Assembly: GCA_946481095.1 (NCBI GenBank)
Contig: CAMLML010000050.1
Span: 1 to 32,422 of the forward strand
Direction of reading: 5' to 3'
From: an uncultured Cellvibrio sp.
GTDB lineage: Bacteria > Pseudomonadota > Gammaproteobacteria > Pseudomonadales > Cellvibrionaceae
DNA length: 32,422 nt
The notes beneath the pieces are model-generated. The model made no database searches and was not told where the DNA came from. It saw only the letters and a list, made by a program, of their open reading frames with translations. The position numbers and the translations under genes are program-made. Numbering within the stretch: position 1 is the first letter of the stretch; each line of letters opens with the position of its first letter. Shown here piece by piece: positions 29,158-32,422 of the stretch.

Positions 29158-29308
29158 CCTCCTAACCTCCCCCTTGACAACGACTACATGGATGCAGGAG
29201 GTAGAACAACGTCAGGAACAGTTGTCGAGGAGAGGGAACAGATCTCACTCTGTTGCATACAGGGAGTCAAGTCCCTCCCCCTTACGAAGGGGGAGGTTAG
29301 GAGGGGGT
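29158..29308. repeat. Palindromic repeat element, copy 1 (intergenic)
   Basis: An 18-base terminal inverted repeat, CCTCCTAACCTCCCCCTT at 29158-29175, is matched by its exact complement at 29287-29304. Just inside the right end, CCTCCCCCTT (29274-29283) and AAGGGGGAGG (29287-29296) form a 10-bp hairpin with a 3-base loop. A 55-base core (29176-29230) is shared with copy 2 at 51 of 55 positions, and itself begins GACAAC and ends with its complement GTTGTC plus GAGG. No transposase gene is present. The element fills nearly all of the fldB-mnmC gap and ends next to the mnmC start. Confidence 0.85.
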
Positions 29309-29309
29309 T

Positions 29310-31460
29310 TTGCACGCATCAATTGAATGGGACGATCAAGGCCAACCAATTTCCAAATCGTTTGGCGATGTTTATTTTTCAAAGGCCAACGGTCTGGAAG
29401 AAACCCGTCATGTATTTTTACAACACAATCAATTAACAGAACGCTGGAAAAAATTATCCGAAAATAGTTTTTTCGTGATTGGCGAAACCGGTTTTGGATC
29501 AGGTTTAAATTTTTTAGCCGCCTGGGATTTATGGTTAAAGACCGCACCCTCTTCCGCACAATTCCATTTTGTTTCTGTTGAAAAATTTCCACTGCACAAA
29601 CATGATTTACAAAAAGCATTGGCACTTTGGCCCGAACTTGAGTTTTTATCCTCGCAATTAATTGATGCTTATCCTTGTTTTGTGGGAAAGACCCCCTCCC
29701 AACCTCCCCCTTGCCAGGGGGAGGAGCAGTCCCCTCCCCTGGCAACGACTGCATGGACGCAGGAGGTAGAACAATGTCAGGAACAGTTGTCGAGGGGAGG
29801 GTTAGGGTGGGGTCATGCTTTCCACCGACTCTCTTTCATGCAAGGCCGCATAAAACTCACACTGATTATTGATGATGCTGTTGAAGGTTTTACAAAATTA
29901 CTGGCATCAACCCACCCATTATTTATGCGCGCCGGTTTTAAAATGGATGCCTGGTTTCTTGATGGTTTCGCTCCGGCAAAAAATCCACAAATGTGGAGTG
30001 ATGAATTATTTTCAGCGATTGCCAATCTCAGTCATTTACAAACAACTGTTGCGACGTTCAGCGCAGCCGCTTTGGTAAAAAATGGTTTGAAAAAAGTTGG
30101 CTTCGCAATCGAAAAAGTAGCGGGCTTTGGTCGCAAACGTGAAATGGTCAAAGGGCAATTCGCGATTGAACCTGTCGCACCTGATGTAAAACAATTTGAA
30201 TTCAAAGGCAGCTTCTCACCCTACCCTATCCCCTGGACAATTTCCGACAATCAAACTGAATACACGGAAAAAACAGCAACAATTATTGGTGGTGGAATTT
30301 CAGGTTGTCACACAGCAAGAGCGCTAGCCGAACGGGGTTGGCAAGTCACATTAATCGAACGTCACCACGCTCTCGCGCAAGAAGCCAGTGGAAATCCACA
30401 AGGTGCTGTCTACGCAAAACTTTCAATGCTGGACGAAGCCCAGGCTGCATTTAATCTGCACGCGCTGCAATTTGCTCTTCATTATTATGCAGATTTGTGG
30501 CCGGAAATTGGTCAGCAATCGGGATTATTGCAACTGGCGTATAACGATGCGGAAACGAAATTACATCAGCATTTGCTAAAACGTTTTGCTAAAGCCGATG
30601 CGCTGGTGCAATTTGTCAGCGCCGAACAAGCCAGCGAAATTGCTGGAGTTAACTTGCAATACGGCGGCCTTTATTTTCCAACATCCGGTTGGATCAACCC
30701 AAAAAACCTCTGCAAACTTTTAACCAATCATCCAAACATCAATATTCGTTATGCATCACAAGCCATCGAATTAAATAGACTTGATGATTCATGGCAAGTA
30801 GGTACTGAAAATAATTTTCAAATAGAATCCAACATAGTTATTCTCGCAAACAGTCGCGACGCTGCAAATTTCGATCTGACTCGTCATCTTCCTTTTAATA
30901 GCATTCGCGGACAAGTCACCTATCTACCCCAACCCGAAACATTGCAATTAAAAACGGTGATTTGTACAGAGGGTTACATCAGCCCCGCTGAAAACGGACA
31001 ATTTTGCATAGGTGCCACCTTCAATTTACGCGACCACAACCCCAACACCACTTCAAAAGATCATCAAACCAATTTCAATAGTTTCAAACAACATTTACCT
31101 GCGCTGGCCAATTATTGGCAAGAAATTGAAATAGAAAAATTAACCGGCCGCGTCGCTTTCAGAGCCAGTCTGCCCGACTATCTCCCTGCCGTAGGCCAAG
31201 CACCCAACAAAGAAAAAATCCAACAAAATTTTGCCAAACTTTCCGTCAACGCCCGCGCCGGAATCACCCAACCCGGTAACTACCACCCAGGCCTATACCT
31301 CAACCTCGCCCAAGGCTCCCGCGGACTGGCCTACACACCACTGTGCGCAGAATTATTGGCATCCATCATCAATAAAGAACCACTCCCCATAAGCCAGCAA
31401 TTAGCAAATGCGTTGAACCCTGCAAGGTTTTTAATCAGAGACATAATAAAGAGAAAATGA
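29310..31460 (+). CDS. mnmC: Bifunctional tRNA U34 modification enzyme MnmC, with in-frame repeat insertion
   Basis: MnmC completes the mnm5s2U34 wobble modification of tRNA: its C-terminal FAD domain removes carboxymethyl from cmnm5U and its N-terminal domain methylates the product. The methyltransferase part has IGETGFGSGLNFL (57-69) and AWFLDGFAPAKNP (214-226); the FAD part starts with ATIIGGGISGCHTARAL (323-339). At 716 residues it exceeds E. coli MnmC (668). The excess is explained by residues about 128-168, encoded by repeat copy 2, which lie in a loop between LIDAYPCFVG and FHRLSFMQGR. The reading frame is intact, so the gene may still work. The start is a TTG (29310) giving HASIEWDDQG, which aligns with family N-termini; GGAGGGGG just upstream comes from repeat copy 1. 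Confidence 0.93.
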   Translation: MHASIEWDDQGQPISKSFGDVYFSKANGLEETRHVFLQHNQLTERWKKLSENSFFVIGETGFGSGLNFLAAWDLWLKTAPSSAQFHFVSVEKFPLHKHDLQKALALWPELEFLSSQLIDAYPCFVGKTPSQPPPCQGEEQSPPLATTAWTQEVEQCQEQLSRGGLGWGHAFHRLSFMQGRIKLTLIIDDAVEGFTKLLASTHPLFMRAGFKMDAWFLDGFAPAKNPQMWSDELFSAIANLSHLQTTVATFSAAALVKNGLKKVGFAIEKVAGFGRKREMVKGQFAIEPVAPDVKQFEFKGSFSPYPIPWTISDNQTEYTEKTATIIGGGISGCHTARALAERGWQVTLIERHHALAQEASGNPQGAVYAKLSMLDEAQAAFNLHALQFALHYYADLWPEIGQQSGLLQLAYNDAETKLHQHLLKRFAKADALVQFVSAEQASEIAGVNLQYGGLYFPTSGWINPKNLCKLLTNHPNINIRYASQAIELNRLDDSWQVGTENNFQIESNIVILANSRDAANFDLTRHLPFNSIRGQVTYLPQPETLQLKTVICTEGYISPAENGQFCIGATFNLRDHNPNTTSKDHQTNFNSFKQHLPALANYWQEIEIEKLTGRVAFRASLPDYLPAVGQAPNKEKIQQNFAKLSVNARAGITQPGNYHPGLYLNLAQGSRGLAYTPLCAELLASIINKEPLPISQQLANALNPARFLIRDIIKRK
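29691..29812. repeat. Palindromic repeat element, copy 2 (inside mnmC)
   Basis: About 122 bases bounded by ACCCCCTCCC (from 29691) and the near-complementary GGGTTAGGGTGGGG (to 29812). The left end folds as CCTCCCCCT (29703-29711), 4-base loop, AGGGGGAGG (29716-29724). The core 29741-29795 matches copy 1 (29176-29230) with four differences. It has no stop codon in the mnmC frame and encodes roughly TPSQPPPCQGEEQ to EVEQCQEQLSRGG. Confidence 0.85.
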
Positions 31461-31465
31461 TGAAT

Positions 31466-31638
31466 GGAAATATACAGCAACATTTTATCTACACTTTTAT
31501 TCAGCGCCCCTAACTCGCTGAAAACAAAAAACAATTTAAGACGACAACAAAATAAAAACGGAAATATACAGCGAAAAACCCGATGAGCTTGTAAATATAC
31601 AGTCTGGAGATATATAGTTGGCGCTGTATATTAAACTG
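31466..31638 (+). other. attI-like left boundary of the cassette array, with ATATACAG repeats
   Basis: The 178-bp stretch between mnmC and the first cassette has no gene. It holds GGAAATATACAGC twice (31466-31478 and 31560-31572), a third partial copy GTAAATATACAG (31591-31602) and an inverted copy GCTGTATATT (31623-31632) seven bases before the recombination point. The junction reads ACTG/TTAGGAA with crossover expected after G31638. Nothing to its left can fold into an attC, so this is where an attI site, or a secondary insertion site, would be. A 7-bp stem with a 9-base loop (31500-31522) lies after mnmC. Confidence 0.5.
31589..31618 (+). promoter_or_regulatory. Candidate cassette promoter (Pc-like)
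   Basis: TTGTAA (31589-31594, 4 of 6 to the -35 consensus), 18-bp spacer, TATAGT (31613-31618, 5 of 6 to the -10 consensus). It points into the cassette and lies about 30 bases before the cassette gene's ATG. Location and direction fit a cassette promoter; the evidence is by eye only. Confidence 0.35.
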
Positions 31639-32372
31639 TTAGGAAAAAAATGTCATTTAAAGAAAGCCTCTATGGAAGTAAAAATCCTGCCCTACGAAAA
31701 GTCATACTAATAAACCTAATGATTGGGCTACCTATCTTAACTATATATGGAATGATTTTTGGAAATTTGGTTGTTAATGAACGCCTTTGGGAATTTCTAA
31801 AAATATCTAGTATTTTTCTTTCAATTATTTTTTCAATATCATTTGCTTATATAATTCTATCCTACCCCAATAAAAGAGAAGCACTTAGAAGGCAACTTGA
31901 AAAAAGTAACAAATATTGCAAATATAAAATTATAAGGTTATTTTGCTATATATTATTAATTCCGCTATCTGGTGTATTATTTGCGCTGTTTCTATGCGGT
32001 TCAATTTATGGAACTTGTGATATTCATACAAAGATTTTTGGGGAAAAATATGGAACCTTAGCGATTCTTCATAAAGTTCACAAGCGCCATAGAAAAAGTT
32101 GCGACTATTATTTTTCTGGCAGTTTTTTTGAAAGAATGCCAAAGGGCAAGATTTGCCTAGATTATGAAGTCTTTGTTACTTTACCGGAAGGAAATATTAA
32201 AGTGAATTTATATGGAAAGAAGTCTATTTTCGGTGTGGTTGTTACTGAATGGGAAATTAATAATTCCTAACAAAGCAATCAAACGGATGGTTTTTAAGTT
32301 GCATTTTTGCCATTCCGCTTCGCTCCATTTTATGGCAAAAATGCAACTTAAAAACCACCGTTTATCGCGGCG
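31639..32372 (+). mobile_element. Integron gene cassette 1 (734 bp)
   Basis: The cassette begins TTAGGAAAA right after G31638 and ends at G32372 of GCG/TTATAA. If excised as a circle, the end G joins TTAGGAA to form GTTAGGAA, the exact complement of TTCCTAAC at 32264-32271 (the R'' box). This is the expected relation between the two outer boxes of an attC and is strong evidence that the unit is a genuine cassette. It holds one gene in the cassette direction and is clearly more AT-rich than the neighbouring DNA. No integrase gene is present at its left side. Confidence 0.88.
31650..32270 (+). CDS. Cassette-encoded membrane protein of unknown function
   Basis: I do not recognise this 206-residue protein. 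Three hydrophobic helices are visible (about 17-41, 50-71 and 93-119). A basic loop (PNKREALRRQLEKSNKYCKYK, about 73-92) lies between the second and third, so it is probably cytosolic, and the C-terminal 85 residues would be on the opposite face. That domain has CGSIYGTCDIH, KSCDYYFSGSFF and GKICLDYEVFV, with several cysteines, and ends VVTEWEINNS. The ribosome binding site AGGA, 5 nt before the ATG, is made by the cassette's own recombination core. Base composition is AT-rich, unlike the host genes. The stop codon overlaps the R'' box of the attC. No homology is claimed. Confidence 0.7.
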   Translation: MSFKESLYGSKNPALRKVILINLMIGLPILTIYGMIFGNLVVNERLWEFLKISSIFLSIIFSISFAYIILSYPNKREALRRQLEKSNKYCKYKIIRLFCYILLIPLSGVLFALFLCGSIYGTCDIHTKIFGEKYGTLAILHKVHKRHRKSCDYYFSGSFFERMPKGKICLDYEVFVTLPEGNIKVNLYGKKSIFGVVVTEWEINNS

Positions 32373-32379
32373 TTATAAA
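32264..32379 (+). other. attC recombination site of cassette 1
   Basis: Boxes in order: R'' TTCCTAAC (32264-32271), L'' ATCAAACGG (32278-32286), a perfect 26-bp inverted repeat with arms 32288-32313 and 32332-32357 around an 18-base loop, L' CCGTTTAT (32358-32365), and R' GTTATAA (32372-32378). L'' and L' are complementary except for one extra C in L'', which would leave an unpaired base in the folded strand, as integrases require. At about 115 bp it is of the long type. R' differs from R'' because its right half belongs to the next cassette. Confidence 0.92.
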
Positions 32380-32422
32380 TGAATATGAGAATATTGAAAC
32401 TTATTTTAATTATTTTTCTCCT
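32379..32422 (+). CDS. Start of a second cassette gene (truncated by window end)
   Basis: Six bases after the crossover point at 32372/32373 an ATG opens MNMRILKLILIIFL, still open at the window edge. The short basic start followed by a hydrophobic run looks like a signal peptide or a first membrane helix. An alternative ATG lies at 32385. No good ribosome binding site is visible. It is consistent with the array continuing beyond the window. Confidence 0.45.
   Translation, partial: MNMRILKLILIIFL

Follow-up and report, generated by a model that had tools for sequence, protein, structure and literature searches.

How does an array of gene cassettes come to begin directly after a tRNA modification gene, with no integrase gene beside it? 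In a complete integron the integrase gene, intI, stands beside attI, and the cassettes follow attI. The window analysed here, a stretch of 32,422 nucleotides from an uncultured Cellvibrio sp. that appears to make up an entire record, ends in cassette DNA downstream of mnmC, which occupies the side of attI where intI would normally be. The mnmC gene, the gap that follows it, the attI core, the cassettes and the attC site all lie on the + strand. Comparisons were made with a genus set of 21 genomes and a family set of 144 genomes.

The first cassette and its attC site

The first gene cassette occupies 31639..32372 and its boundary boxes can be read directly. It starts with TTAGGAA (31639), the reverse complement of TTCCTAA (32264), and ends at G32372 within GTTATAA; the 734-bp unit, the exact pairing of its start with the R'' box and the GTT crossover triplet given in the initial annotation are all as described there. 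The cassette gene (31650..32270) starts 11 bases into the cassette and has its stop codon within R''. Because the first bases pair with R'', the open reading frame is arranged in this way and a 114-bp attC stands at the end, we conclude that 31639-32372 is one complete integron cassette. A second cassette starts at 32373..32422; only 50 bases of it are present before the record ends, and an open reading frame from the ATG at 32380 is still open at that point.

The product of the cassette gene is 206 aa long, and its hydropathy profile peaks at three hydrophobic segments, near residues 14-43, 48-73 and 92-122. No homologue other than the protein itself was found at E 1e-3 among 267 word-sharing candidates, every match to Pfam and NCBIfam fell below cut-off, and the best PADLOC match had an E of only 0.015. 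A possible promoter for the first cassette lies within attI (31589..31618, + strand, TTGTAA-18-TATAGT). It is a consensus match, and such matches number six in the region against 5.8 expected from shuffles; at most, it might drive the first cassette.

The attC site spans 32265..32378 (114 bp), with R'' box TCCTAAC at 32265-32271 and R' box GTTATAA at 32372-32378; it was identified by its stem, its fold, blastn likeness and a covariance model. The perfect 26-bp stem that had been reported is present (32288-32313 / 32332-32357, with 18 bases between). The bottom strand folds at -36.1 kcal/mol; dinucleotide shuffles average -13.33 (sd 2.49), which gives z -9.14, and none of 200 folded as well. 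Unpaired bases stand beside the L boxes in the fold. In a palindrome scan of the window the site scores 33.5, while five base shuffles gave scores of 15 or less. The initial annotation had placed the site at 32264-32379 and asked whether covariance models recognise it; model R2, for which five Cellvibrio attC sites were used and the window's own left out, recognises it on the + strand at 32265-32378 (E 2.3e-17). Model R1 is no test of the site because it was built with it. No match to Rfam at gathering scores was found in the window. The attC sites of the closest relatives are 94-98% identical over 108-113 bases, and those of distant ones down to about 70%. The window attC is therefore real and typical of the genus Cellvibrio.

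A second class of Cellvibrio attC sites was also seen, of 131-141 bases, in which just one of the arms contains an additional small hairpin (alignment A3; examples are L070:4830-4968 and L096:6262-6401). The next-best site of the palindrome scan, at 29160 (score 16), belongs to an inverted element at 29160-29302 upstream of mnmC; it was rejected as an attC, being a dispersed palindrome of which a related copy lies within mnmC (29686-29815; 90% identity over 71 bases). The copy inside mnmC is in frame and adds about 40 residues. This insertion varies among relatives and is absent in three of eight MnmC proteins compared (P0003, P0004 and P0033).

The mnmC junction and the attI core

The mnmC gene (29310..31460) matches NCBIfam NF002480 at 677.8 bits, against a cut-off of 540. 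Its product is intact to the C-terminus, which matches that of relatives; the closest match, P0001, is 94% identical, and among the named proteins listed the closest are from Cellvibrio (P0014, 77% over 56% of the query; P0033, 58%). At E 1e-3, none of six IntI queries matched the window. The earlier remark that no integrase is in sight thus holds for the window, which comprises 31.6 kb to the left of the crossover and ends 784 bases to its right. Nor was a remnant of intI detected in 31201-31660, where the best E was 0.13.

In relatives the region following mnmC is different. The mnmC loci of 20 Cellvibrio relatives contain no attC at E 0.05 and nothing like 31461-31660 at E 1, and in none of them does mnmC adjoin attI. 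Instead, comFB follows directly 3' of mnmC in 17 of the 20 (330 bases read), and tblastn finds comFB in 19; the twentieth locus, L052, is short. One comFB product tested matches Pfam ComFB at 77.3 bits. No comFB was found in the window by tblastn. Since both the 178-base gap between mnmC and the cassette (31461..31638) and the array are missing in relatives, both are extra in the window. The empty site ending at G31638 that had been anticipated in sister strains is accordingly not what the 20 loci contain: they lack the gap altogether, and the attI core with it.

The right part of the gap resembles the DNA beside integrase genes elsewhere in the genus. With 31461-31660 as query, blastn gave matches just upstream of intI at L070 (E 4e-7) and L075 (E 6e-5), weaker matches (E above 0.02) near intI at L069 and L074, and a match of the gap region at E 1e-9 to L090, an orphan site, i.e. 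an attI without intI. By local alignment the gap reached z 7.2 to L075 and 4.5 to L070, with values below 4 for the other 15 of 17 intI loci. We built a 49-position profile, R3, from 26 attI sites, comprising 18 orphan sites (obtained by BLAST with the window) and eight beside intI, with the window itself left out. R3 places an attI core, including the crossover, at 31607..31642 (E 7.4e-10). On 29 control loci (20 mnmC loci and nine intI loci; 347,606 bases) it gave a single sub-threshold match, at E 0.032. When the family set was searched at E 1e-5, 13 of the 21 genus genomes had R3 sites, as did three of the 123 others; the latter three genomes hold four sites, one of which (G357:C9:201514) is 320 bp from intI. 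The crossover, G^TT, between attI and the first cassette is placed at 31638..31639 from likeness between species at intI-less pairs of loci. An attI core, identified by its likeness to these sites, thus heads the array of the window. It was suggested earlier that mnmC takes the place of attI; by both blastn and R3 the attI core lies between mnmC and the cassette.

The extent of attI within the gap is more limited. The likeness to L075, which ends at 31641, begins at 31560 by blastn and at 31546 by local alignment, and 31461-31545 is assigned to attI solely through a repeat copy. The segment 31461-31641 aligns at z>4 to 31 of the 64 profile sites described below, and 31461-31606 by itself to one of 64. 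About 35 to 95 of the 178 bases can be aligned to other attI sites, and we therefore rejected the whole gap as attI, because its right part alone aligns. The orphan sites L090, L091 and L093 are likewise alike over their last 30-40 bases only.

Four direct copies of TGGAAATATACAG were found by repeat search at 31465, 31559, 31590 and 31605 (31465..31617, + strand). A TATAYNG motif, which stands at -28, -43, -74 and -168 in the window, occurs at -28 in 25 of the 25 best-scoring relative sites, a count that partly reflects how the sites were chosen because the -28 copy falls inside the profile, and at -72 in 22 of 25. These repeats are candidate accessory integrase-binding sites. Other intI genes have different surroundings: by eye, the groups L064-L068 and L076-L078 have clearly different sequence just upstream, which R3 does not detect. 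Because these upstream sequences differ, the genus would seem to have at least three types of attI side by side.

Orphan attI sites and probable loss of intI in Cellvibrio

At E<=1e-3, 16 of the 21 genus genomes have R3 matches, 64 attI sites in all, a count that includes training members because R3 was built from 26 such sites. The counts exclude L104 and L109, which came up in the initial BLAST pass but do not figure among the R3 sites; G337, G350 and G379, outside the genus, matched parts of the query other than the core. For eight of the 64 sites an intI over cut-off is no more than 350 bp away, and in all eight intI is on the opposite side from the cassettes and reads away from them. The remaining 56 are orphan sites. 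For 54 of them the sequence extends 800 bp or more to the right; 41 of these 54 have a same-strand attC within 3 kb downstream and 13 have none; attC occurs upstream of three of the 56. The strand of an attC was taken as the better-scoring of two palindromic matches, and the count of zero on the opposite strand depends on this choice. Among sites of at least 45 bits, 21 of 24 have a downstream attC. Low-scoring orphan sites may be chance matches or dead.

Such sites are numerous within single genomes. Genes for IntI over cut-off number 17, in 15 of the 21 genus genomes; the highest number of attI sites per genome, eight, was reached in G311 and G314, and G311, of whose 4.5 Mb contig C1 (4,489,528 bp) comprises nearly all, has no intI over cut-off. 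R3-type attI sites head six of eight attC clusters in G311, five of eight in G314 (one being the intI locus) and five of 10 in G321; the remaining clusters may have other attI types or none. G327 carries one intI and three orphan attI arrays with a nearly identical attI core. In G319, a genome with 37 attC matches, the sole intI over cut-off (G319:C2:324219-325157) has an in-frame TGA.

Five attI copies of G311 have a mean identity of 93.1%. On a tree of attI sites the genome labels required 14 changes, as compared with a mean of 15.8 after shuffling, and values as low were seen in 24 of 200 shuffles. Concerted evolution of attI copies within a genome was considered and rejected, the tree being poorly resolved and the labels barely clustered, and attI subtypes differing between species at some of the loci that they have in common.

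Comparison of host loci suggests how attI may come to stand alone. In G327 (L070) intI lies at -286 to -1221 and the host gene ends at -1287, while in G319 (L132) a related host gene ends at -326, with no intI between and a long array after. G320 has an intI at L073, and in G318 (L120) codons 285-312 only (28) are retained, at -123 to -206. In G307 (L114) the intI beside attI has an internal gap and a frame change. Across L110-L146 the remains of integrase comprise this broken gene, the stub at L120 and a 31-residue fragment at L142, with no intact intI; in L090-L109 and the window the six IntI queries found none. Since intI is present at a given host locus in one species and missing from it in another, loss of intI is the simplest reading for the window as well. 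As the window holds no remnant, we infer loss at this site from the relatives, and displacement by rearrangement is also possible.

Cassettes have changed at such sites. By their left host flanks, the orphan sites L106/L103/L112, L111/L108, L110/L119 and L126/L128 are common to different species. Seven intI-less pairs were aligned in detail: the left likeness reaches the crossover, or comes within 4 bases of it, in four (L106/L103, L111/L108, L110/L119 and L126/L128) and stops 6 to 205 bases short in three (L102/L144, L096/L143 and L127/L139). The right sides of paired sites have little in common beyond attC-sized pieces at different positions; for L126/L128 and L111/L108 likeness resumes further on only. 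The differing right sides therefore indicate that cassettes changed at these sites after the species parted, be it before or after the loss of intI. L126 has an altered crossover triplet and no attC. At some loci the attI subtype itself differs (L102 and L117 as against L144 and L125; L096 as against L143), and this hints that attI has been replaced there or that favoured loci have been entered more than once.

Origin of the array and comparison with known systems

We consider it very probable that the window holds the start, on a Cellvibrio-like chromosome, of an attI-headed integron array without intI, and that intI has most likely been deleted or rearranged away. The attI core, the one cassette with its 114-bp attC and the start of the second would be the beginning of this array. 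To judge from the relatives, intI would formerly have stood at this site, to the left of attI; it would later have been deleted, or left behind by a rearrangement, leaving attI next to mnmC. The cassettes may still be exchangeable by an integrase elsewhere in the genome; service of the window attI in trans is possible, though unproven. On the scale of the genus, a distributed integron can be envisaged, with several attI arrays per genome, most of them without intI, filled and shuffled in trans by one integrase whose locus differs between species. We offer this wider proposal tentatively and regard it as rather doubtful, if reasonable.

Among the readings put forward initially, an integrase-less array is supported by these data, whereas insertion of the cassettes at a secondary site is contradicted, because the bases to the left of the crossover are an attI core. 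An integrase elsewhere acting on an attG site downstream of mnmC has in its favour that the larger part of the 178-base gap cannot be clearly assigned to attI. In its favour too, off-target insertion figures among the three origins put forward for clusters of attC sites lacking an integron-integrase (CALINs), next to loss of recognisable intI and rearrangement (PMC8618304). Nevertheless, blastn and an independent profile agree that the sequence adjoining the crossover is like attI cores. This sequence does not follow mnmC in relatives, so that the left flank is not continuous host DNA; we therefore hold this origin to be very unlikely. Among the proposed origins the window fits loss or displacement of intI.

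The array might also belong to a complete but rearranged integron, fully active, whose intact intI would lie past the right-hand limit of the record or, following an inversion, at some other place. The record does stop 50 bases into the second cassette, and intI over cut-off is present in 113 of the 144 family genomes, so the host probably has an intI somewhere. All eight intI genes beside this type of attI are, however, on the side held here by mnmC, and the orphan loci examined contain no intact intI, which makes such an arrangement very improbable. A chimeric assembly, in which repeated attI or attC sequence joined an mnmC contig to an array of another locus or strain, is a concern in that attI sites stand at contig ends in draft genomes (L140, L134, L063 and L073) and that similar attC sites are described as complicating assembly (PMC9024848). 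Against this, the best matches of 31461-31606 among 195 locus records (1.25 Mb) extend over just 20 to 33 bases (E 2.5e-4); matches being this short, no long repeat is seen at the junction, and we judge a chimera to be very improbable. Deletion of intI, or its removal by rearrangement, is thus the reading retained.

With respect to known systems, the window has two of the parts of a complete integron, an attI core and attC-bounded cassettes, and lacks an adjoining intI. It shares attI, the G^TT crossover, the attC class and the anatomy of the cassettes with sedentary chromosomal integrons having a divergent intI, of which L069, L070 and L079 are ordinary examples in the genus; it differs from them in having no intI and in having mnmC in its place. 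It resembles a CALIN in having an attC-bearing cassette with no intI in the 31.6 kb to the left or the 784 bases to the right of the crossover; what sets it apart is that its array retains attI. IntegronFinder 2 by default counts at least two attC sites as a CALIN, and would list the present array if it had them; its count comprised 2961 CALINs as compared with 2760 complete integrons, so that the two are about equally common (PMC9024848). The window contains one full attC, its second cassette being cut by the end of the record. Because attI sites other than those of class 1 are undetected by IntegronFinder (PMC9024848), attI-headed and attI-less CALINs are not separated by it.

CALINs have been proposed to be degraded integrons. 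In Xanthomonas, intI was inactivated at the ilvD integron and CALINs occur at seven other chromosomal loci (PMC12444791); the resemblance lies in decay of intI with arrays left in place. The Cellvibrio relatives differ in having many loci per genome with a recognisable attI, which is unmentioned for the off-locus CALINs in the passages on Xanthomonas concerned. Among the titles searched we found no report of dispersed attI-headed arrays.

The window alone is of modest interest; more is to be had from the family of orphan attI sites, which bears on how integrase-less arrays arise. A retained attI serves as a mark in the sequence by which loss of intI can be told from off-target insertion, and the series from a whole intI through a broken gene and a stub to none at all offers possible steps of that loss. 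If the orphan attI sites work, a genome would have many entry points for cassettes instead of the one.
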